A stretch of DNA of 64,000 bases from NCBI GenBank assembly GCA_947497145.1, contig CANMFQ010000007.1, forward strand, positions 1 through 64,000. The letters run 5' to 3'. The translations under genes and the position numbers were made by a program. The notes beneath the pieces were generated by a model that was not told the DNA's origin, did no database searches, and saw nothing but the letters and a program-made list of their open reading frames with translations. Every line of letters begins with the position of its first letter. Within the stretch, counting starts at the first letter, position 1. Shown here one piece after another: positions 4,529-64,000 of this stretch. This DNA comes from an uncultured Flavobacteriaceae bacterium. Its GTDB lineage: Bacteria; Bacteroidota; Bacteroidia; Flavobacteriales; Flavobacteriaceae.

Positions 4529-6634
4529 TTAATTTGTAGCTTGTGTAACAACGCCAACTTCAGCAAATGAAGCCCGGCTATCTTCACCGTCTACGGTAAC
4601 GGCTTTTAATTTTATATACCTTCCTTTGGTGGTATTGAAAGCTACTTTTTGTTGCAAACGACTATTAACTACATTAGAAAACTCGCCCTTAGCTACCGAT
4701 TTCCAGTTGGTATTATCAGTACTAACCGAAAAATCATAATTGGTAACAATACCAAAAGGATAGCGATTTTGAATTGGCCAATAGGTAAAGCCCTTTAAAT
4801 CATACATTGCACCTAAATCAATAACCACCTCTTGCGGTTTTGTTACCTTTTCAGCCGTAGCCCAAAAAGTATTTGGATTTTCATCTATTAAAAGGTTTGC
4901 TTTTTCAAGCTCGCCTGAGCTTACACGTATTACTTTCCAGTCTTTTTTTGCAATATCTATAGCAACACTTACGGCTTGCGTTTGCTGCTTGGTTTTGCTA
5001 TCATAACTAATTGCTTTAAGCGTAGCTGGCTTTGCTACAACAAACGGATTTGTGTATTTTGTTGCATTGCTTGAAGGTTCACTACCGTCTAATGTATAAT
5101 AGATAGCCACACTTTTATCAGGTACTGACATACTAACCGTACCTTCTTTTGTACGTGTTATAGTAGGTTCAACTAAGAAGTTTGGCGCTCTATACAGTCC
5201 TAAAGTTGCAATTGTTACCGGGCCTTTAGCGTCTAGTATATGTACTCGTATTTTTGTTGCTTTTACCGTGTCAAAGCGTAAAATACGTTTGTAGCCAATT
5301 GTTGTTTGCGTAGCAACAGTTTTCCATTTGCCATTAATCTCTGCATCAACAGCAAACTTTTTTACACGCTGCCCCAGAGGAATGTATTCTTGTAGCGCTA
5401 CACGATTAATTTCAGTAGGGGTATCAAAACTTACCGTAAGCGAGGCATCAATAACACCGTCATTGGTTGCCCAGTAAGTGTTCGTATCGCCGTCAATGGC
5501 ATTTTTAGCGGCATAGTCACTATTATTTCCACGAGTGTCAGAAGCGACTATTTGTTGTCCTACGGCCTCGTTTGTTTTAAAATCGGCGTCAAGTTGCTTT
5601 TTTAGAGCCATTAATTGCTTTACATCATTCTCATGCACTAGCCCTCTGTTGTCTACAGGGAGGTTTAGTAGCAGATTAGAATTTCGACCGACAGAACCGT
5701 AATAGATATCTACCAAATGCGGTAAGGTCTTAACTTGATGGTCTTCTCCCGGGTGGTAGTACCAACCTGGTCGAATAGAAGTGTCAGCCTCGGCAGGAAG
5801 CCAGTGAGTACCATCTTCATGACCTGAACGCAATTCTACATAACGTGGCCAACCCGGATAAATTTCATCCCTTCTCATAACACTCCAATTAGTTTCATTG
5901 GCAAAACCTTCTTCGTTACCTACCCACCGAATATCAGGCCCGGCATCACTGAAAATAACTGCATTAGGTTGTAGTTCACGTACAATGGCTGTTGCTTTAT
6001 CCCATTGGTAATAGGTTTTATTGTCTATTTTACGTGTTTCATTAGCACCGCCATAATAGCCAGATCCGCCATTAGCACCATCAAACCAAACTTCGAAAAT
6101 GGTTCCGTAATTGGTTAGCAATTCCCGTAGTTGCTCGTGAAAATTAGCTACATATTCTGGCTGGCCATAATTGCCCGCATTTCTATCCCACGGTGAAAGG
6201 TACACGCCAAATTTTAAACCATATTCAGCACAAGCTTCTGAGATTTCTTTAACCAAATCACCTTTTCCATCTCGCCAAGGAGAATTTTTAACAGAGTGTT
6301 CGGTAGTTTTTGTTGGCCACAAACAAAAGCCATCATGATGTTTGGCAGTAATAATAATACCTTTCATACCTGCTTCTTTAGCTACCCTTGCCCATTGGCG
6401 GGCATCTAACTCGGTAGGGTTAAATTGTGCGGGTTTTTCACCTCCCGTACCCCATTCCATATTAGTAAAGGTGTTCATGTTAAAATGAACAAAGGCATAA
6501 TATTCCATTTCATGCCAAGGTAAATGCCGTGCTTCGGGCACAGGTGTAATGGGAGTAGGGGGTGCTACTTGGGTGCTGCTACCACAGGAAACGAATAGGG
6601 TTGATAGGACTAAAAGGACAATAAATTTTTTCAC
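4529..6634 (-). CDS. Secreted GH29 alpha-L-fucosidase lipoprotein with chitobiase-like and F5/8-type C domains
   Basis: 701 aa. The N-terminus MKKFIVLLVLSTLFVSCGSS is a lipoprotein signal with the lipid-bearing Cys at 17. Residues about 35-360 form the GH29 barrel, with KHHDGFCLWPT at 98-109 and the nucleophile region VWFDGANGG with Asp185. A discoidin-like F5/8 type C module follows at about 370-485, then a chitobiase C-terminal-like module (YYTLDGSEPSSNATKY), then a second discoidin-like module to the end. The expected reaction is retaining hydrolysis of alpha-L-fucosides from algal or animal glycans at the cell surface; substrate linkage cannot be read from the sequence. No susC/susD pair, sulfatase or other glycosidase lies nearby, so this is a lone gene rather than part of a polysaccharide utilisation locus. 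Confidence 0.93.
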   Translation of the reverse strand: MKKFIVLLVLSTLFVSCGSSTQVAPPTPITPVPEARHLPWHEMEYYAFVHFNMNTFTNMEWGTGGEKPAQFNPTELDARQWARVAKEAGMKGIIITAKHHDGFCLWPTKTTEHSVKNSPWRDGKGDLVKEISEACAEYGLKFGVYLSPWDRNAGNYGQPEYVANFHEQLRELLTNYGTIFEVWFDGANGGSGYYGGANETRKIDNKTYYQWDKATAIVRELQPNAVIFSDAGPDIRWVGNEEGFANETNWSVMRRDEIYPGWPRYVELRSGHEDGTHWLPAEADTSIRPGWYYHPGEDHQVKTLPHLVDIYYGSVGRNSNLLLNLPVDNRGLVHENDVKQLMALKKQLDADFKTNEAVGQQIVASDTRGNNSDYAAKNAIDGDTNTYWATNDGVIDASLTVSFDTPTEINRVALQEYIPLGQRVKKFAVDAEINGKWKTVATQTTIGYKRILRFDTVKATKIRVHILDAKGPVTIATLGLYRAPNFLVEPTITRTKEGTVSMSVPDKSVAIYYTLDGSEPSSNATKYTNPFVVAKPATLKAISYDSKTKQQTQAVSVAIDIAKKDWKVIRVSSGELEKANLLIDENPNTFWATAEKVTKPQEVVIDLGAMYDLKGFTYWPIQNRYPFGIVTNYDFSVSTDNTNWKSVAKGEFSNVVNSRLQQKVAFNTTKGRYIKLKAVTVDGEDSRASFAEVGVVTQATN

Positions 6635-7000
6635 AAGTATATGTTTAGGAATTAGAAGTGGTTAAAAATTATATTACGTATTCCAAAAATATAAAAACAA
6701 AACGGATAAAATTACTGTTGCGTTAAATTGCTTTTTAAATGAACTAAAAAAGTAGCCCTAAGTTTGGTTTAAAGACAATTTAAAGGGTGTTTTGTACATG
6801 GCTCATGATGTGAGCATGATATAATAAATGCTTTAAAACCAGGAAAAAAGCCTTAGATTAGTATTGACAGAATAAACGGTCAAAAATACATATTGTAATA
6901 AAGTCTAAACTAGGACTACATCAAAAGGTATACATTTATTAAGCCTACCAAAATTTTAATTCTACTTTTTGAGGGAATTAGTAAGAAAGGAAAAATAAAA
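6635..7000. other. Non-coding stretch upstream of the fucosidase gene
   Basis: AT-rich DNA with no supported gene. It should hold the fucosidase promoter, reading leftward, but I could not identify a convincing TAnnTTTG box on that strand. Confidence 0.35.
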
Positions 7001-7084
7001 ATGAAATTTCCGTATTATGTAATAGCGTTATCACTTATTTTTAGTGCTACTTTTCATGTACCGAACCATGGTGCTGCATTTTGA
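7001..7084 (+). CDS. Possible 27-aa signal-peptide-like microprotein
   Basis: A short frame begins MKFPYYVIALSLIF and ends in TGA at 7082-7084. It looks like a bare export signal: a basic start, a hydrophobic core, then a polar tail. A purine-rich tract (AAGGAAAAATAAAA) lies directly before the ATG. It may be the truncated head of a lost exported protein, or a leader before the VOC gene 17 bp downstream. Support is weak because of its size. Confidence 0.3.
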   Translation: MKFPYYVIALSLIFSATFHVPNHGAAF

Positions 7085-7101
7085 TAAAATAATACTAAGT
7101 T

Positions 7102-7563
7102 ATGATTAAAGGACTTTATGAAACCCATTTATATGTTGAGAATTTAGAAAAATCAATTGAATTTTATTCTAAAGTTCTTGGTCTAAAGCAATGTCGCTTT
7201 GGAGCAGAAAGGAGAACGGCATTTTTTTGGATTGGAGAAGATAAACAGGCGATGCTCGGATTGTGGGAAAAGCCTAAAGAAGAGATTGATTTAAGACATT
7301 TTGCCTTTGAATGTGATCCTGATTGGATACTAAATGAATCTGTTAACTTTTTAAAATCTAACAGCCTAAACTTTTGGAATTTTTTACAAGATGACAATGA
7401 AAAACCAATGGTTTTTTGCTGGATGCCAGCAGTATCCATATATTTTAGTGACCCAGATGGGCATTATCTTGAATTCATTGGCATTTTACCCGGAAAAACC
7501 AAATCTAATGAAGAAAAAAGAGTTGTAACGTACGAACAATGGCTCAAAATAAAAGGGGAATAG
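7102..7563 (+). CDS. VOC (glyoxalase/dioxygenase) superfamily protein
   Basis: 153 aa, one vicinal-oxygen-chelate unit of two beta-alpha-beta-beta-beta modules. The start ETHLYVENLEKSIEFYSKVLG is a classic first module; later come DLRHFAFEC and YFSDPDGHYLEFIG. Candidate metal ligands are His9, His66 and Glu124, all present, so a metal-dependent enzyme such as a glyoxalase-I-like, fosfomycin-resistance-type or extradiol-type protein is possible. The substrate cannot be assigned. The C-terminal tail of about 25 residues is polar and probably flexible. It is a single-gene unit facing away from the fucosidase. Confidence 0.88.
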   Translation: MIKGLYETHLYVENLEKSIEFYSKVLGLKQCRFGAERRTAFFWIGEDKQAMLGLWEKPKEEIDLRHFAFECDPDWILNESVNFLKSNSLNFWNFLQDDNEKPMVFCWMPAVSIYFSDPDGHYLEFIGILPGKTKSNEEKRVVTYEQWLKIKGE

Positions 7564-7712
7564 CAAACTCCCTACGATAACCAAGTCTTGGAGAAATAGC
7601 AAGCTTGATGGTGTTCCATTTGATATTTTGTTATCGCAAGATGGCACAATATGAAGGAAGAATATTGCTATAGCAGAATTAATTCAACTTTTGAGATAAT
7701 AACTAAGGCTTC

Positions 7713-7865
7713 ATGTGGTTCGTACACCCCAACCCAAAAGCATTGATAACTGAATTGACTGTTACGGGGTTGCTGAATGTTTGTGGTATTTTATTAAGGA
7801 CGAAAGCTCTTTTAGTAGCTGTCTTCCTTATTTATGGCAGTATTGTAGCCTTCCTTACAGTCTAA
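7713..7865 (+). CDS. Small 50-aa membrane ORF, possibly a remnant
   Basis: An ATG frame of 50 codons begins right after an in-frame TAA. It encodes a hydrophobic peptide with two likely helices (LTVTGLLNVCGILL and LLVAVFLIYGSIVAFLTV) linked by RTKA. The composition is membrane-protein-like, and it resembles part of a larger small-integral-membrane family. It could be an intact microprotein or a fragment left after decay. No partner gene is evident. Confidence 0.35.
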   Translation: MWFVHPNPKALITELTVTGLLNVCGILLRTKALLVAVFLIYGSIVAFLTV

Positions 7866-8023
7866 AAATGCCTTTAAGTAATTCATAGAATCCCCTATTT
7901 CAGGAAATATTTGTCGATTTTCTATTCGGTTTTACTTTATTAACCACTTTATAAGAACAAGGTGTTTACAGGAAACTTCTCAAATACGCACCGATATCCC
8001 ATAAAATAAGCCAAATACTTTTT
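7866..8023. other. Short non-coding stretch
   Basis: AT-rich DNA between the small membrane ORF and the DUF6438 gene. No feature is seen. Confidence 0.3.
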
Positions 8024-8443
8024 TTAGTTGATTGCTAATTGTGCTACTAAATTTTCTATAACTGTGTTTATTTTTTTTAAATTCCCTGAAGTATTGGTAG
8101 CATGGTAGCTGTATTTCTTTTGATTGTATTTTAATACAGTCACCGGTTTATCACGTATTTTTTTAAACGGTTTTGGAGAGTCCATTTCTTTTAAAAGAGC
8201 CAGTAATGAGGTAAGTTCTTGGGGCGATAATTTTTTAGTTTGCTTACCGAGTACAGGCACATTGCGTAATCCATTATAAGACAGTATTCCGTTTTGGTCT
8301 ATTGCTACATCGTAAACAGGGCAGTTACCCAAACAAGCTCCTTTTGAATAGCTTAACAATGTTTCAGACGCTGATTGTTGTGCTTTTTGGGTAGTTTTAC
8401 AAGATAGTAAAGTCAAAATCATCATGGCGAGTAGTCTTTTCAT
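8024..8443 (-). CDS. DUF6438-family lipoprotein
   Basis: 139 aa. The lipobox LLSC puts the lipidated Cys at 15. The mature part begins with the family signature SKGACLGNCPVYDVAID (Cys37 and Cys41), followed by ILSYNG and a C-terminal LKYNQKKYSYH segment. This fits the small beta-rich DUF6438 domain, often found as a lipoprotein in Bacteroidota; its function is unknown. The two conserved cysteines could form a disulfide in the periplasm. It lies 57 bp downstream of the metallopeptidase lipoprotein gene on the same strand, so the two may be cotranscribed. Confidence 0.8.
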   Translation of the reverse strand: MKRLLAMMILTLLSCKTTQKAQQSASETLLSYSKGACLGNCPVYDVAIDQNGILSYNGLRNVPVLGKQTKKLSPQELTSLLALLKEMDSPKPFKKIRDKPVTVLKYNQKKYSYHATNTSGNLKKINTVIENLVAQLAIN

Positions 8444-8500
8444 TTCAAATTATTTAAAAAATTGTATTCGTTGATTTGTTTGTAAACAGGCGTTACAATT

Positions 8501-9598
8501 TTAGTGTTTGAAACAGGTAGACCGTTTGGGGTTTCCAAAAGTTGAGGCCCTTTTCCAGGTTCCTGCTTTTGGTAAAAAGCCTTTTGTTTTTGAAGAAACA
8601 CCACCATTATCTCTAATAAAAGCTCTTAGTTCAACCAATTCTGTATTATTATACATGAACTGTATTTTTTGTTCAGCAATCGATGTTCCGTTCGCACCAC
8701 CATCTCGTGTTACAAATGTCGCAAATACTTCTGCAATATCTTCTGGAGGATTGGTTGAAGCGTATCGAGTAACGAAACGATCTTGATAGGTATTGTAAAA
8801 GTTATCCTGTGCAGTTGATCCTTCTAGTTGGTCATGTTCTTCTGCAATATCTGCCCAATAATTTGAAAAGAGGGTATTAATATACGCAGGTGTTTTTGCA
8901 CAGCCTTCACCGGGGTAATAGTTTGCGCAATTCGCTTCTGTAATAGCGCTATCTATTTGTGTGTCATTTAACGTTAATATATGGCCAAACTCATGCACAA
9001 TAGTGTATGCCAATTCGCCATCGGCATTAAAACCTCCCTCATAAGCAAGATCAATAGCAATAGCAAATTGCCATTTCGATAAGCTACTATTAGTTTGATT
9101 GACGAAACCAAGCGTTTCATTTTGTTCTCCCGAAAAAATTAGAAAATGGCTAATTTTTTCTAAATACCTAGGTGGAACAATTTTTTTTATCAAGCCCCAA
9201 ATTTCAGCATGTTTATCGGTGTCGTTTTGATATGTTAAGTCGGTACCTGAAACCATATAGTCCCTATCTTTGGTAATGGTAGTGCCATTTACTAGATAAC
9301 GAGTAATTGCGCCTTCCTCTTCAACATCATTTTCGGTGGTGTCGGTATTGGAGTTATTGTTATTATTGTTGTTATCAGTGTTATTATTGTTATCAGTATT
9401 GTTATTGTTGTCAGTGTTGTTATTGTCTTCAGTATCTGTTTCGGTATCCGAGTCGTCAGTGGTAGCATCGTTATTATCGGTATCCGTTTCTTCAGTGGTT
9501 GCGTCATTGTTAGCAACATCATCTTTGTCACATGATTGAATTAGAGTAAAGGCAAGAAATAAGACGAGTAAGAGTCGTAGTTTAAAAAAGTTTTTCAT
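8501..9598 (-). CDS. Zinc-metallopeptidase lipoprotein with Asn/Asp/Thr repeat linker
   Basis: 365 aa. A lipoprotein signal ends at Cys23 (LIQSC). Residues about 25-95 are a low-complexity tether built from N, D and T, including the repeated unit NNNNTD. The folded domain follows with the zinc motif HEFGH at residues 202-206 in the stretch YTIVHEFGHILTLN, typical of gluzincin/metzincin-like putative zinc-binding peptidases. A further ligand is not obvious. It is probably anchored on the outer membrane with the domain held away from the surface. The last 30 residues (starting GVSSKTKGFLPKAG) are basic and look unlike the rest of the domain, so a late frameshift or added tail is possible. Confidence 0.8.
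   Translation of the reverse strand: MKNFFKLRLLLVLFLAFTLIQSCDKDDVANNDATTEETDTDNNDATTDDSDTETDTEDNNNTDNNNNTDNNNNTDNNNNNNNSNTDTTENDVEEEGAITRYLVNGTTITKDRDYMVSGTDLTYQNDTDKHAEIWGLIKKIVPPRYLEKISHFLIFSGEQNETLGFVNQTNSSLSKWQFAIAIDLAYEGGFNADGELAYTIVHEFGHILTLNDTQIDSAITEANCANYYPGEGCAKTPAYINTLFSNYWADIAEEHDQLEGSTAQDNFYNTYQDRFVTRYASTNPPEDIAEVFATFVTRDGGANGTSIAEQKIQFMYNNTELVELRAFIRDNGGVSSKTKGFLPKAGTWKRASTFGNPKRSTCFKH
9370..9430 (-). repeat. Simple-sequence repeat encoding (NNNNTD)n
   Basis: An imperfect repeat of an 18-nt unit (AAC/AAT codons plus ACT/ACA-GAT) inside the metallopeptidase gene. It encodes the flexible linker. Such tracts can expand or contract without breaking frame because the unit is a multiple of three. 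Confidence 0.6.
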
Positions 9599-57931: not shown

Positions 57932-59445
57932 TTATAGTTTCTCAGCCAATATGGCAATCATTGTTTTAATACCTTCCCTATAGTTGCCTAATCTGATATT
58001 TTCGTTTGGACTATGTTGGTTATTATCACTATTTACTGTAGGAACAATGACTGCGGGAGTCTTAAGCTCAATTACAAATGGTGAAATTGGTATCGATCCG
58101 CCAGCTATTCGTATCATTATGGGATCAGTACCAAAGGCATTTTTCATGGCGTTTTGCAACCAAATGCCTACTTCAGAGTTAAAATCTGTTCTAAAAGATT
58201 GATATGAAATTTCAGATGTAAACGAAGCTATTTTTTCATTTTTTAAGCGTTCTTCTTTGGTAGGTGTTTTATGGGTGATAAAATAACCTTCATTTTCGAT
58301 ATGTTTTTTAACGAGGTTTATTAATCTTTTAGGATCAGACTCTAAAACCAATCGGATATCAATTTCTGCTCTTGCCCAGGCTGGTACAATAGTTCTAGTT
58401 TGCTCATCAATCCAACCAGATTGCATTCCGATAATGTTTAAGGAAGGATATTGCATGGCTTCTTGATAATTATTGCCCACTTTATCAATACTACCAATTT
58501 GTAGTTTATCTTTAAATTCTGATTCATCGTCAGGAACAGATTGCAATATTTTTTTTGTTTCAGCATCTAATGAAATACCCTGATAGTAACCAGGTATTAT
58601 AACCTTTCCGTTGTCATCTTTCATAGATGCCAAAAGTTTAGATAATCTCAATGCGGGGTTTGGTGCGTAGTTTCCAAAATGACCACTATGCTGAGGAACT
58701 ATTGGTCCATAAGTGGTTAAGGTAATTGTAGCAATTCCGCGTGCTCCAAAAGTTAAGGTAGGTTTATTGGTGATATGACGCGGACCATCAAATATAATCA
58801 GCATATCTGATTTTAGTAATTCAGTATTTTTAGCAACCGCTTTTGGCAATCGCGGAGAGCCCAATTCTTCTTCAAAATCCATTATGACTTTAATAGTGTA
58901 ATTTGGATTAATTTTTTCTTCGGCAATAGCATCTAAAGCTGCAAGAAACATAGCTATTGGCCCCTTAGCGTCTGATGCTGATCTTGCAAAAACCCTCCAG
59001 TCATCATTGTAATTCTCTATTAAGTTCCAGGGTATTTGCTCCCAATCGTTATTGATTGTTGGTTTTTTTAACACCGGTTTGTACGGATTTTTTTGATGCC
59101 ATCGTGTAGTATCAACAGGTTGACCATCTACTTGAAGATATATGAGTACTGTCTTTTTTGCATTTTTTGCTTTTCGCTCGGAAATAATAGAGGTACTGTT
59201 TCCGTTTCAAGTCTTAATGTAGTAAAGTTTCTTTTTTGGAATTCGTTTTCACACCATAGTATGTTTTTTTCAATATTTTCAGGATAAAAAGCATCATTAG
59301 GTATACTCAGCAAATCCTTGAGTATTGGAAAGGATTTAATAGTATGTTTTTTAGATAATTCAGTAAGACGCTTTTGATTTATCTGCTGAGCACTAATGTT
59401 AATTGAAAAAAAAAGGATGCATGCTAAAAATATTACGCTTTTCAT
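57932..59445 (-). pseudogene. Exported M20/M25/M40-family metallopeptidase, broken by a frameshift
   Basis: Two frames make one protein of about 504 aa. The 5' part (59445 to about 59165) has a signal peptide (MKSVIFLACILFFSINISAQ) and the helical start of the family. The 3' part continues in another frame with VLIYLQVDGQPVDTTRWHQK, FARSASDAKGPIA, FEEELGSPRLP, HSGHFGNYAPNPALRL and IRIAGGSIPISPF, an intact M20 body. The shift falls in a six-T run (59163-59168); seven bases there would restore the frame. It is either a recent inactivation, a sequencing error, or slippage. The conventional first His ligand is replaced here by Gln in YLQVDG. Confidence 0.85.
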
Positions 59446-60738: not shown

Positions 60739-61899
60739 TTAAGATCGATAATGAACAGCAATTTGTGCCAATTGCCCTACAATTTTTACTGAATCGCTCA
60801 TTGATAGTTTAGAGCCATCGGCGTGAATCCATCTTTTTAGGGGTTTTTCACAAATCATTTTAACAGCTTCTTTTCTGCCATAAAACCTGCGCATTCGCAT
60901 GAAAATTTCCACATCAAATAACCATTTGGTAATAAATTTGTTTTTAAACATTTCGGCTGCAATTTCTCTATCCATCACCTTAGCACCACATTGCGTGTCA
61001 TTAAAAGGCATTTTTAGGATATTACGTATGATGAGGTTTATGGTTTTACTTATAATTTTACGGGCTGATTCTTTGGTGATATCAGCACCCATTCGATTCA
61101 TTCGCGATCCACTTACAATTTTAAAATCGGAGTTTTCTATGGTACTTACAAGGTCATTAAAGTCTCTAAAATCAGTTGATAAGTCGGCATCAAGGTAACC
61201 TATATAGTCTAGTTGGTGGTCTTTTAAAAGATGTTGTATTCCTTGGCGAACAGCTTCGGCTTTTCCACCATTTTTTTTACAATTGTACACACTGATATTC
61301 GATTCGTTGCCTTGTTGAAGTTCATAAAGTACCTGAAGAGTACTATCTGTACTTCCATCATTTACAAAACAAAGGTGATATCCTAAATTTTTATGCGCAA
61401 AATCTCTAAATGTATCGCTTAGTAATCGTGTTTCTTCATTATAGCAGGGTATGACTACACCTACACAGTTTTTTTGTAGCATTCTAGCACCAGCAGTTCT
61501 TACGGTTTCTTTTTCCATTTCAGGACTGCCAATAATTCGTTTTATGCGAACCGTCATTTCTTCTAAACTGACAGGTTTTTTCATGTAATCATTTACGCCA
61601 AGGTTGAAGTTTTCTAAAATCACCGATTCATTCGTATTACCTGACATAACCAAAATTGGCGTGTCTTTTTTAAGTAATACACGTATATATTTCACCATTT
61701 CGGTACCTGTAGTCTCTATTACACCTGATATTTCGGGCATATTCATATCTAAAAGTACCAGGTCAGGATTGAAAGAGTTAAACACTTTAATTCCTTCTTC
61801 GGTGTTCCTAGCAGTTTTTACTTCATACCCAAGTTGAGATAACCATTTCTGTACAGATAGGAGGATAAGCTGTTGATCATCAATTGCTAATATTTTCAT
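60739..61899 (-). CDS. CheY-like receiver fused to a DPM1-like family 2 glycosyltransferase
   Basis: 386 aa. Residues 1-125 are a complete receiver: acidic pair Asp7/Asp8 (AIDDQQ), phosphoacceptor Asp51 (LVLLDMNMPE), Ser86 (LVMSGNTN) and Lys108 (MKKPVS). After a short linker, residues 146-375 are a GT2 domain: VVIPCYNEETRLL, NDGSTDSTLQV, KKNGGKAEAVRQG, YLDADLSTDF (DAD at 237-239) and NDTQCGAKVM. This is the order of dolichyl/polyprenyl-phosphate mannose or glucose synthases. No C-terminal membrane helix is present. No kinase lies next to it. It is divergent from the membrane gene at 62110, 210 bp away. Confidence 0.9.
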   Translation of the reverse strand: MKILAIDDQQLILLSVQKWLSQLGYEVKTARNTEEGIKVFNSFNPDLVLLDMNMPEISGVIETTGTEMVKYIRVLLKKDTPILVMSGNTNESVILENFNLGVNDYMKKPVSLEEMTVRIKRIIGSPEMEKETVRTAGARMLQKNCVGVVIPCYNEETRLLSDTFRDFAHKNLGYHLCFVNDGSTDSTLQVLYELQQGNESNISVYNCKKNGGKAEAVRQGIQHLLKDHQLDYIGYLDADLSTDFRDFNDLVSTIENSDFKIVSGSRMNRMGADITKESARKIISKTINLIIRNILKMPFNDTQCGAKVMDREIAAEMFKNKFITKWLFDVEIFMRMRRFYGRKEAVKMICEKPLKRWIHADGSKLSMSDSVKIVGQLAQIAVHYRS

Positions 61900-62109
61900 A
61901 GGTTAAGTATTAGTTTTTATGCTGTTGTAATCAGTTGGTTTTTCTGAGGCAATATGTAAATATAGTATTTAACTTACAAATAATGTACGAATAAGGCTCA
62001 ATTACCGTTTTCTGTAGATGAATGGTCATATAGTGATGTTTATTTGATATGTATAAGTTTTTTAAATAAGTCAAAATAATATTGTTATATTTTCCTACAT
62101 TTATTGTTG
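61900..62109. promoter_or_regulatory. Shared intergenic region of the divergent glycosyltransferase pair
   Basis: About 210 bp between two divergent genes, AT-rich, with no gene of its own. It should contain both promoters; I could not assign a clean TTG/TAnnTTTG pair by eye. Confidence 0.4.
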
Positions 62110-64000
62110 ATGAAGAACACAAACACATTGTTAGTTTTAGCCCTATTTGTGGGGGTAGCGTTTCATGGATCTAGCATCTTTTTTACTTTAGAAACTACTT
62201 ACGATGCCTTAATTCATCTATTTTTTGCCGATCATTATGCAAAAAGTTGGTTTGAACCATGGGATTATCGCTGGTATACGGGTTTTACCGTACAGGGATA
62301 TCCTCCTTTGGTACATCAAAGTATAGGCATTTTATCATATATAGGAGGTTTAAAGTTTGGCCTATTTACCGTAGGGCTTTTTGCAATAATTCTATTCATT
62401 ACAGGCACATATAGATTTGCATTATTGATGACAGCAAATAGAAAAATTGCTGGCTATACAGCTATATTGGCTGTTTTTTCTTCAACTTTTATTGAAACGC
62501 TTCATGTATTTGGGCAATTGCCGAGTATTGTAGGGCTTTCAATACTGCTGCATTCTATGCCTGAAATATACCTATGGATTAAAACCGGTAACTACAGATA
62601 TTTGGTAACTTCCTTGTCCTTAATAGCAGTTACCGTAACATCGCACCATGTCACACCAATTTTTGGGATGGTATTTTTTATTTTTCCTTTGATAGGTATG
62701 GTTATTATGGATACCTCTATTGATAAAGTTCATGTCAATAGCGCGCTTACTTTTAAAGTGTTTTTGGCGTCCTTTAAAAAACTGTTTTGGCGTATTGTAA
62801 GTTTTGGGTTTTCTTCTTTGTTTCTTATTGTGGTATGTATTTTACCCTATTGGATTAATACGAAGAAAAACCCCATTACGCAGGTACCTATTCCACATGG
62901 TTCTCGCGATAACTTTTTAGAAGTAACCTCTTCGGGGCTTGTTTTTTTCGTCATTCCTTGGGGTTTACTTACGTTTTTAATGCCCTATATATTTTATCGT
63001 TTCTTTAGCAAGCGTTATCTGTTTTTTGGATTATCAATGGTTATTTTAACCATTTTAGGTACCGGTGGTACCACGCCCATACCCTTAATTGTATTGGGTA
63101 AAACTGCATTTAATATTTTAACGCTTGACCGTTTTACACTTTGGGCAACTATTATGGCATTGCCCATTTTTGGTGAATTCACGTATCGAATGGTGGCGGG
63201 CGATTTAAAGCAACAACTACAAAAACGTTTTGGCGGTATTTATCATCGACTTTTGGGTGGAGCCATAGCGGGAGGGGTATTGTTTATGGTTATGTTTACA
63301 ATGAGTTTGGGGTATTTTAGACCCTCGCAACCGCAAAAAATTAATATGTTGCCTATTGTTAATTTTTTAAGCCAAGACCAGCATGACCAATGGCGTTATC
63401 TACCGCTAGGTTTTGGAGATCAAATGGCATGGCTGTCGGCACAAACCAATGCAATGACTGTAGATGGTAATTATCACTCGGCAAGACGACTACCTGAGCT
63501 AACCACAAGAGCAATAGAACGTCTCGAAAATTCAAAATTTAGAGGTGTTGAAGGTATTGGATCATTACAACAGTTTTTAACGGTGCCCGAGAAGTATAAT
63601 TTGAAATATATTTTTAGTAATGATAAATTTTATGATCCTATTCTTTATTTCTGCGGATGGCAACGACTGCAACAACTAGAAAATGGAATAATGGTTTGGG
63701 AGCGGCTAAATGTTCCTCCAATGCCTAAAATACTGCCTAAAGAAGATGTTGCCCAATGGCTAAAAATCATGTGGGGTATTATACCCATATTAACCGTGCT
63801 CATTGCATTTTTTATTAATATTCAATTATTGTGGTATCGGGTATTGAAATACAAGAAGTTACATATGCCTGATTATATGAAGTATCCCCTTGATTTTCAT
63901 GATTTTCCTAGGCTAATGGTAAACATTAACCACATTTGGGCATTTTTAGTGCTTGCTTGCTTGGGCTTTGGCATTTATGAATTTTACCTATTTAACGCAA
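62110..64000 (+). CDS. Large polytopic membrane protein, PTPS-related/GT-C-like (truncated at window edge)
   Basis: An open frame of at least 630 codons runs from ATG 62110 to the end of the window. Ten or more hydrophobic helices are visible. After the first helix comes a loop with acidic and aromatic residues (TYDALIHLFFADHYAKSWFE, WDYRWYTGFTVQGYPPL), typical of GT-C enzymes and of the membrane family related to 6-pyruvoyl-tetrahydropterin synthase (PF10131). A soluble segment (about 415-530; VNFLSQDQHDQWRYLPLGFG, MTVDGNYHSARRLPE) lies between later helices. It probably transfers sugars from polyprenyl-phosphate donors, matching the divergent DPM1-like neighbour. Confidence 0.7.
   Translation, partial: MKNTNTLLVLALFVGVAFHGSSIFFTLETTYDALIHLFFADHYAKSWFEPWDYRWYTGFTVQGYPPLVHQSIGILSYIGGLKFGLFTVGLFAIILFITGTYRFALLMTANRKIAGYTAILAVFSSTFIETLHVFGQLPSIVGLSILLHSMPEIYLWIKTGNYRYLVTSLSLIAVTVTSHHVTPIFGMVFFIFPLIGMVIMDTSIDKVHVNSALTFKVFLASFKKLFWRIVSFGFSSLFLIVVCILPYWINTKKNPITQVPIPHGSRDNFLEVTSSGLVFFVIPWGLLTFLMPYIFYRFFSKRYLFFGLSMVILTILGTGGTTPIPLIVLGKTAFNILTLDRFTLWATIMALPIFGEFTYRMVAGDLKQQLQKRFGGIYHRLLGGAIAGGVLFMVMFTMSLGYFRPSQPQKINMLPIVNFLSQDQHDQWRYLPLGFGDQMAWLSAQTNAMTVDGNYHSARRLPELTTRAIERLENSKFRGVEGIGSLQQFLTVPEKYNLKYIFSNDKFYDPILYFCGWQRLQQLENGIMVWERLNVPPMPKILPKEDVAQWLKIMWGIIPILTVLIAFFINIQLLWYRVLKYKKLHMPDYMKYPLDFHDFPRLMVNINHIWAFLVLACLGFGIYEFYLFNA

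Follow-up and report, generated by a model that had tools for sequence, protein, structure and literature searches.

A conserved receiver-glycosyltransferase fusion in Flavobacteriaceae, linked to a GT-C-like membrane protein, an apparent exopolysaccharide locus, and an H-NOX phosphorelay

Introduction

Proteins that join receiver domains to a glycosyltransferase of the GT2 type have been described in Methanobacteriaceae, as REC-BcsA-like fusions (MTH_548) (PMC5847659). Here we analyzed a stretch of 64,000 nucleotides from an uncultured Flavobacteriaceae bacterium (contig CANMFQ010000007.1, positions 1 to 64,000; hereafter, the window), in which one gene encodes a receiver-GT2 fusion that we call REC-GT2. 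A preliminary description of this DNA had called receiver-GT2 proteins unusual; the archaeal fusions qualify that statement, and a narrow lineage range is common to both groups, as is the placing of one or more receivers on a GT2-type enzyme (PMC5847659). The archaeal effector is cellulose synthase-like (PF13641), whereas that of REC-GT2 is of the ArnC/GtrB/DPMS type, and the cited text, as far as it goes, mentions no linked GT-C gene or nitric oxide (NO) relay for the archaeal proteins (PMC5847659).

By both sequence and fold, the GT2 domain is closest to ArnC, GtrB, and DPM1, with the DXD motif conserved; these enzymes are without a receiver, whereas REC-GT2 has one. ArnC and GtrB carry C-terminal membrane helices; in contrast, no transmembrane segment is predicted in REC-GT2. 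In other bacteria, H-NOX and NosP regulate biofilm via kinases, mostly through cyclic di-GMP (c-di-GMP), and the relays of Vibrio, Shewanella, Legionella, and Burkholderia likewise combine heme NO sensors with histidine kinases and receivers and have a biofilm output (PMC8738867, PMC12570481). The known outputs of such relays are mostly c-di-GMP enzymes or quorum sensing, whereas a LytTR regulator, and perhaps also the GT2 enzyme, appears to be the output here. For Bacteroidota without c-di-GMP, the control of surface polysaccharides is an open question to which this locus offers a compact candidate answer. In a partial search of the literature, we found no description of a bacterial REC-GT2 of this type or of its locus, nor of a polysaccharide cluster controlled by LytTR/H-NOX in Bacteroidota.

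The REC-GT2 fusion and its conservation

60739-61899, minus strand: REC-GT2 fusion, a single uninterrupted open reading frame (ORF) of 386 amino acids
REC-GT2 residues 1-123: receiver
REC-GT2 residues about 124-144: linker
REC-GT2 residues 146-386: GT2 domain

Pfam searches placed the receiver family PF00072 at residues 3 to 119 of REC-GT2 (E = 1.9e-22, 80 bits) and the GT2 family PF00535 at residues 148 to 317 (E = 1.7e-23, 83.8 bits); a PF13641 match scored 21.4 bits, under the cutoff of 27, and the effector was not assigned to that family. When one genome per species was scanned, the same fusion was found over residues ~1 to 385, at 66 to 76% identity, in 80 loci from independent assemblies, all of them, judging from the titles, from Flavobacteriaceae or Flavobacteriaceae-like metagenome-assembled genomes. 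Because 80 independent loci encode it, a frame error or a joining of two genes is ruled out, and the 386-amino-acid ORF is a genuine REC-GT2 fusion. The intact receiver and GT2 domains reported in the preliminary description were confirmed, with Asp51, Lys108, and the DAD sequence at residues 237 to 239 as placed there.

We found that Asp51, Lys108, Pro109, and a Ser or Thr at position 86 are each present in 101/101 fused proteins, with Asp7 in 100 and Asp8 in 99 of the same 101; in the DXD motif of the GT2 domain, Asp237 and Asp239 are each present in 100/101. REC-GT2 has the phosphorylatable Asp, acidic pocket, Ser/Thr, and Lys of a response regulator with an effector. In an AlphaFold model of the protein (predicted local distance difference test score [pLDDT] of 78), the N-terminal part resembles receivers, and the C-terminal part resembles ArnC, DPMS, and GtrB, with Foldseek E values of 1.1e-11 for ArnC and 7.6e-10 for DPMS. 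A sequence-profile search against the PDB likewise placed the GT2 domain nearest to ArnC/GtrB/DPMS-type transferases. The domain thus has a GT-A fold with a DXD motif, nearest to polyprenyl-phosphate transferases; the earlier label of DPM1-like is revised in that ArnC and GtrB come before DPM1 among the nearest structures.

The receiver residues bear on an alternative in which this domain works without phosphorylation, as a dimerization, localization, or scaffold module on a constitutive GT2. In its favor, the GT2 catalytic site is damaged in some duplicates (such as the L118 copy described below) whose receiver is intact. Against it, almost all of the 101 fusions retain the acidic pocket, Asp51, Ser/Thr86, Tyr/Phe105, and Lys108, for which a simple scaffold would have no use; we consider this alternative very unlikely.

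The divergent membrane protein

Coordinates past 64000 lie on the same contig and continue the numbering of the window.

62110-64000 in the window, continuing to contig position 65190, plus strand: membrane protein of GT-C-like fold, starting at ATG 62110
Membrane protein residues about 1-630: membrane part
Membrane protein, after the membrane part: NTF2-like domain (about residues 634-741 in the relative in locus L043) and beta-sandwich regions

As first reported, a long membrane gene is divergent from REC-GT2, with 210 bp between the two, and runs past the window; its full-length product has about 1,026 to 1,028 amino acids. Its description as GT-C-like is supported at the level of fold by a model of the relative in locus L043 (pLDDT of 62.5). 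In VIA-align comparisons of this model with PDB chains, STT3, AglB, ArnT, AftA, Pmt4, and PglB were the top matches, with Z scores of 12 to 16.6 over 303 to 341 residues that lie mostly in the first about 410 residues. A plain Foldseek search was uninformative, with its best E value (0.002) to unrelated soluble proteins and an E of only about 0.01 for GT-C proteins; the GT-C fold became apparent only with VIA-align. Solved GT-C members share 9 to 13% identity with the membrane protein, and relative to STT3/PglB/AglB, ArnT, AftA, and Pmt, with which the membrane fold is common, the NTF2-like and beta domains are extra. The family PF10131 (PTPS_related) weakly matched 6/30 relatives at an E of ≤0.1 (best, 0.0011), and the window's own protein had no match to it. 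The co-occurrence that the preliminary description had proposed to look for was found, as the GT-C gene is present in 58/59 genomes with the fusion.

At about residue 440 of the window's GT-C protein, a conserved segment, GDQMAWLSAQTNAMTVDGNYHS, follows the main membrane part. This segment may be akin to the WWDYG region found in the STT3 oligosaccharyltransferases and, if so, would favor a role in oligosaccharide transfer.

An apparent exopolysaccharide locus

The genes to the right of position 64000, to which the preliminary description had pointed, comprise an apparent exopolysaccharide (EPS)-type locus followed by an H-NOX relay. The first part contains the following genes.

65192-66421, plus strand: Ig/invasin-like probable lipoprotein
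66408-67949, plus strand: clan-A glycoside hydrolase
68168-69400, minus strand: GT4 glycosyltransferase (Pfam PF13692/PF00534)
69671-70906, minus strand: Wzx/MOP flippase (Pfam PF13440/PF01943)
71240-73303, plus strand: TPR porin resembling PgaA

This gene order is repeated in most related loci, in Flavobacteriaceae. Because the gene set matches secreted polysaccharide systems, we read the locus, from its gene content, as apparently EPS type. Pel systems combine a GT4, an MOP flippase, a TPR porin, and a hydrolase, a layout to which that of the present locus is similar; REC-GT2 and the GT-C gene belong to neither the Pel nor the poly-N-acetylglucosamine (PNAG) system. No Pel-specific model matched the GT4 or the flippase at an E of ≤0.1, and neither was assigned to PelF or PelG. 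Against the PgaA model TIGR03939, the porin scored 44.7 bits, short of the cutoff of 366.65; its resemblance to PgaA is one of presumed function only.

The preliminary description had proposed surface or protein glycosylation. The flippase, GT4, glycoside hydrolase, and TPR porin point to an EPS-type locus, and protein glycosylation is not evident. A locus for general O- or N-linked protein glycosylation in place of a secreted polysaccharide would agree with the similarity of the membrane fold to STT3/AglB/PglB/Pmt, but the PgaA-like porin, the hydrolase, and the flippase conserved nearby make up a secreted-EPS set, and we regard this alternative as improbable.

Another division of labor would have the GT2 act directly on the EPS repeat or a lipid-pyrophosphate (lipid-PP) carrier in the cytosol, with the GT-C protein polymerizing or ligating the unit flipped by Wzx and not consuming a polyprenyl-P-sugar. 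A Wzx/MOP flippase and a GT4 are present, no separate Wzy was recognized in the conserved cluster, and in fold the membrane protein is most like oligosaccharyltransferases, users of lipid-PP-glycans, all of which count in favor of direct transfer. Against it are the nearness of the GT2 to the polyprenyl-phosphate transferases ArnC/GtrB/DPMS and the finding that this GT2, fused or unfused, accompanies the full-length GT-C gene in 74/74 genomes (at a distance of no more than 12 kb in 71), as one would predict if one protein makes the donor that the other uses. Direct transfer is, in our judgment, possible but not the outcome we would expect.

The H-NOX phosphorelay

73537-74244, minus strand: LytTR regulator
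74248-74568, minus strand: Hpt
74565-76556, minus strand: PAS histidine kinase
76534-77118, minus strand: H-NOX (PF07700, E = 2.2e-38)
77152-77592, minus strand: CheY

The preliminary description had noted that no kinase is adjacent to the fusion and had left the input blank. This holds inside the window; past it, the PAS kinase belongs to a linked relay of the H-NOX/NosP type that has a promoter motif in common with REC-GT2. The relay operon (CheY, H-NOX, PAS kinase, Hpt, and LytTR) lies directly past the porin, 12 to 16 kb from REC-GT2. Its gene content, H-NOX with a histidine kinase and an Hpt, is that of an H-NOX/NosP-linked phosphorelay, and the proximal His and the YxSxR motif of H-NOX are present. 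Relatives often have an inserted FIST (NosP-type) protein (E of about 1e-42) and a second kinase; in the window's own genome, the relay operon showed no FIST gene.

The association of the relay with the locus is conserved: among fused clusters, 25/27 have Hpt within 9 kb of the porin gene, as do 9/11 of those with an unfused GT2. Among 298 genomes of the family, 67 have both the GT-C and H-NOX genes, 7 have GT-C only, 37 have H-NOX only, and 187 have neither; where the two genes are on the same contig, 53/57 pairs are within 25 kb. GGDEF domains are absent from the window's genome and were found in 1/149 genomes of the family.

A promoter motif shared by the locus and the relay

61994-62025, minus strand: putative LytTR binding site CCATTCATCTACAGAAAACGGTAATTGAGCCT, 95 bp upstream of REC-GT2 and oriented toward it
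61957-61964, minus strand: Bacteroidota -7 box-like sequence TATATTTA, 29 bp after the motif site
69481-69512, minus strand: further motif site
71097-71128, minus strand: further motif site
77617-77648, minus strand: further motif site

The motif was derived from k-mers common to the two divergent promoters; it is 32 bp long, with half-sites 21 bp apart. The CCATTCATCTACAGAAAACGGTAATTGAGCCT site scored 35.1 bits with the position weight matrix and is the only match above 8 bits in the window and the best in the 5.1-Mb genome. The two best matches in this genome are upstream of REC-GT2 and GT4; those ahead of Wzx and the relay operon score lower. Across 1.56 Mb of loci, we found 153 distinct sites above 18 bits, compared to 0 in shuffled sequence. 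The gene downstream, in the orientation of the motif, was the CheY operon at 31 sites, GT4 at 25, Wzx at 15, a small ORF at 27, a GT2 or REC-GT2 at 22 (and at 7 more, a gene of which the retrieved sequence covers only the receiver), and a protein of 810 to 960 amino acids, of the type IX secretion system type where examined, at 16. Sites are typically 90 to 115 bp ahead of the gene start, and a TAnnTTTG-like -7 box follows 29 to 31 bp past the motif in 87/247 sites, compared to ≤8 at any position in shuffles.

Direct half-site repeats spaced by roughly two turns of the helix and placed ahead of a core promoter are the arrangement of a LytTR-type site, and the CCATTC sequence may resemble the BtsR/YehT operator. 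In genomes G607, G404, and G556, the LytTR orthologue lies elsewhere; there, motif sites surround its new position, and the EPS cluster has none. Because the motif thus moves with LytTR, LytTR is likely to bind the 32-bp motif, and it probably controls transcription of REC-GT2. We also considered that Euzebyella/Pseudozobellia-type genomes had lost LytTR, leaving REC-GT2 as the sole output; this idea was dropped because an orthologue at 72 to 76% identity elsewhere has its own motif sites, so that LytTR has moved and was not lost.

Further observations concern the motif regulon. In locus L153 (positions 5713-8145, minus strand), a large secreted protein has a DUF4114 domain and a Por secretion tail. 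Many loci have similar ORFs of 810 to 960 amino acids in the interval from LytTR to the porin; these ORFs recur in the regulon, are absent from the window's locus, and possibly encode a matrix or adhesin protein. In L193, L194, and L195, LytTR adjoins a CheY-like gene with its own motif sites, and in L195 the same region includes a divergent pair of Wzx and GT4 genes that may form a second polysaccharide mini-cluster.

A proposed model of two-level control

The fusion, its conservation, the locus, the GT-C fold, the linkage, and the motif are computational findings. Beyond them, we propose that REC-GT2 is a response regulator with an enzyme output, a soluble GT2 of the polyprenyl-phosphate-sugar-synthase type. 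With polyprenyl phosphate as its acceptor, it would provide a lipid-linked sugar to the adjoining GT-C-fold protein, inside a locus for the assembly and export of an EPS product. NO or another heme ligand would act on H-NOX/NosP and, in turn, on the kinases, the CheY-like receiver, Hpt, and LytTR. In the transcription layer, LytTR would bind the 21-bp-spaced repeats that lie 30 bp ahead of the -7 box at the promoters of REC-GT2, GT4, the flippase, and its own relay. In the enzyme layer, phosphorylation of Asp51, most likely by the same relay, would alter GT2 activity; here we infer the phosphodonor, the effect of phosphorylation, and the signs of both control effects. The earlier idea that sugar-donor synthesis is switched by phosphorylation is a plausible one, and for the model as a whole we see the chances as evenly balanced.

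If phosphorylation does gate the enzyme, REC-GT2 would be a response regulator with a lipid-linked-sugar synthase as its output, and its phosphorylation would do what c-di-GMP does for matrix polysaccharides elsewhere. The conserved locus, its linked gas-sensing relay, and the motif common to both suggest phosphorelay control of a surface polymer in marine flavobacteria, in which c-di-GMP is mostly lacking. The more specific proposal, that a heme relay for NO (or O2) exerts two-level control of a matrix polysaccharide without a second messenger, with LytTR turning on the genes, phosphorylation of the Asp directly gating the donor-making enzyme, and the receiver replacing c-di-GMP in post-translational control in Flavobacteriaceae, is one that we put forward tentatively and with more doubt than belief.

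Several results weigh against the model. Sixteen GT-C clusters carry an unfused GT2 only, alongside the same relay, so that the pathway can evidently do without the receiver. The membrane protein had no Pfam, NCBIfam, or PDB sequence match above cutoff, and confidence in its structural model is modest. The Fisher P value for co-occurrence of the GT-C and H-NOX genes (2e-31) ignores shared ancestry and, because the genomes are related, overstates the association. Finally, a partial Mantel test with GT-C, GT4, and porin as controls gave no link between Hpt and the REC-GT2 receiver (r = 0.05, p = 0.28), compared to r values of 0.43 for Hpt-CheY and 0.27 for Hpt-LytTR; it also scored Hpt-glycoside hydrolase at 0.23, which is probably spurious and marks the test as noisy.

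The covariation of Hpt with CheY and LytTR, and not with the REC-GT2 receiver, would agree with an alternative in which an unlinked kinase phosphorylates that receiver, adding a second signal, and the local relay acts via LytTR only. The 45 receiver-domain matches in the window's genome mean that other partners exist, and unfused clusters retain the relay. However, the relay is the sole conserved two-component neighbor of the fusion, no other kinase is consistently linked, and its promoter motif is common to REC-GT2. On balance, an unlinked kinase seems to us rather unlikely, and phosphorylation by the linked relay is the reading that we retain.

Origin and distribution of the fusion

The fused GT2s form one clade (Shimodaira-Hasegawa-like approximate likelihood ratio test, 98), with one state change on the tree, and the unfused GT2s stand beside it and occupy the same position in the same locus. 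The preliminary description had named relatives without the receiver as a sign against its reading, and the tree bears this out by half, in that the sister clade keeps the locus with an unfused GT2. Because the fused proteins form one clade and 16 clusters are unfused, the simplest reading is that the receiver was gained once. Sister lineages with the same cluster, with and without a receiver on the GT2, make up a natural experiment. Across 395 evenly sampled Bacteroidota genomes, both the fusion and the GT-C gene were confined to the window's family, apart from a single genome from a different family in the class.

Some genomes carry more than one copy. In Maribacter-type genomes, two copies of REC-GT2 are separated by about 10 kb. 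In locus L118 (positions 8212-9303, minus strand), a second REC-GT2 copy on a very long branch has an intact receiver and changed GT2 catalytic residues and is possibly a catalytically dead regulatory paralogue. Locus L147 (genome G628) has both an unfused GT2 by the GT-C gene and a fused REC-GT2 by the flippase, which suggests that fused and unfused GT2s can have distinct roles.

Elsewhere in the window, an M20-type peptidase-like gene (57932-59445, minus strand) looks broken, with its parts in different frames: a 105-amino-acid N-terminal part with a signal peptide at 59128-59445 and the remaining 380 amino acids at 57932-59074.

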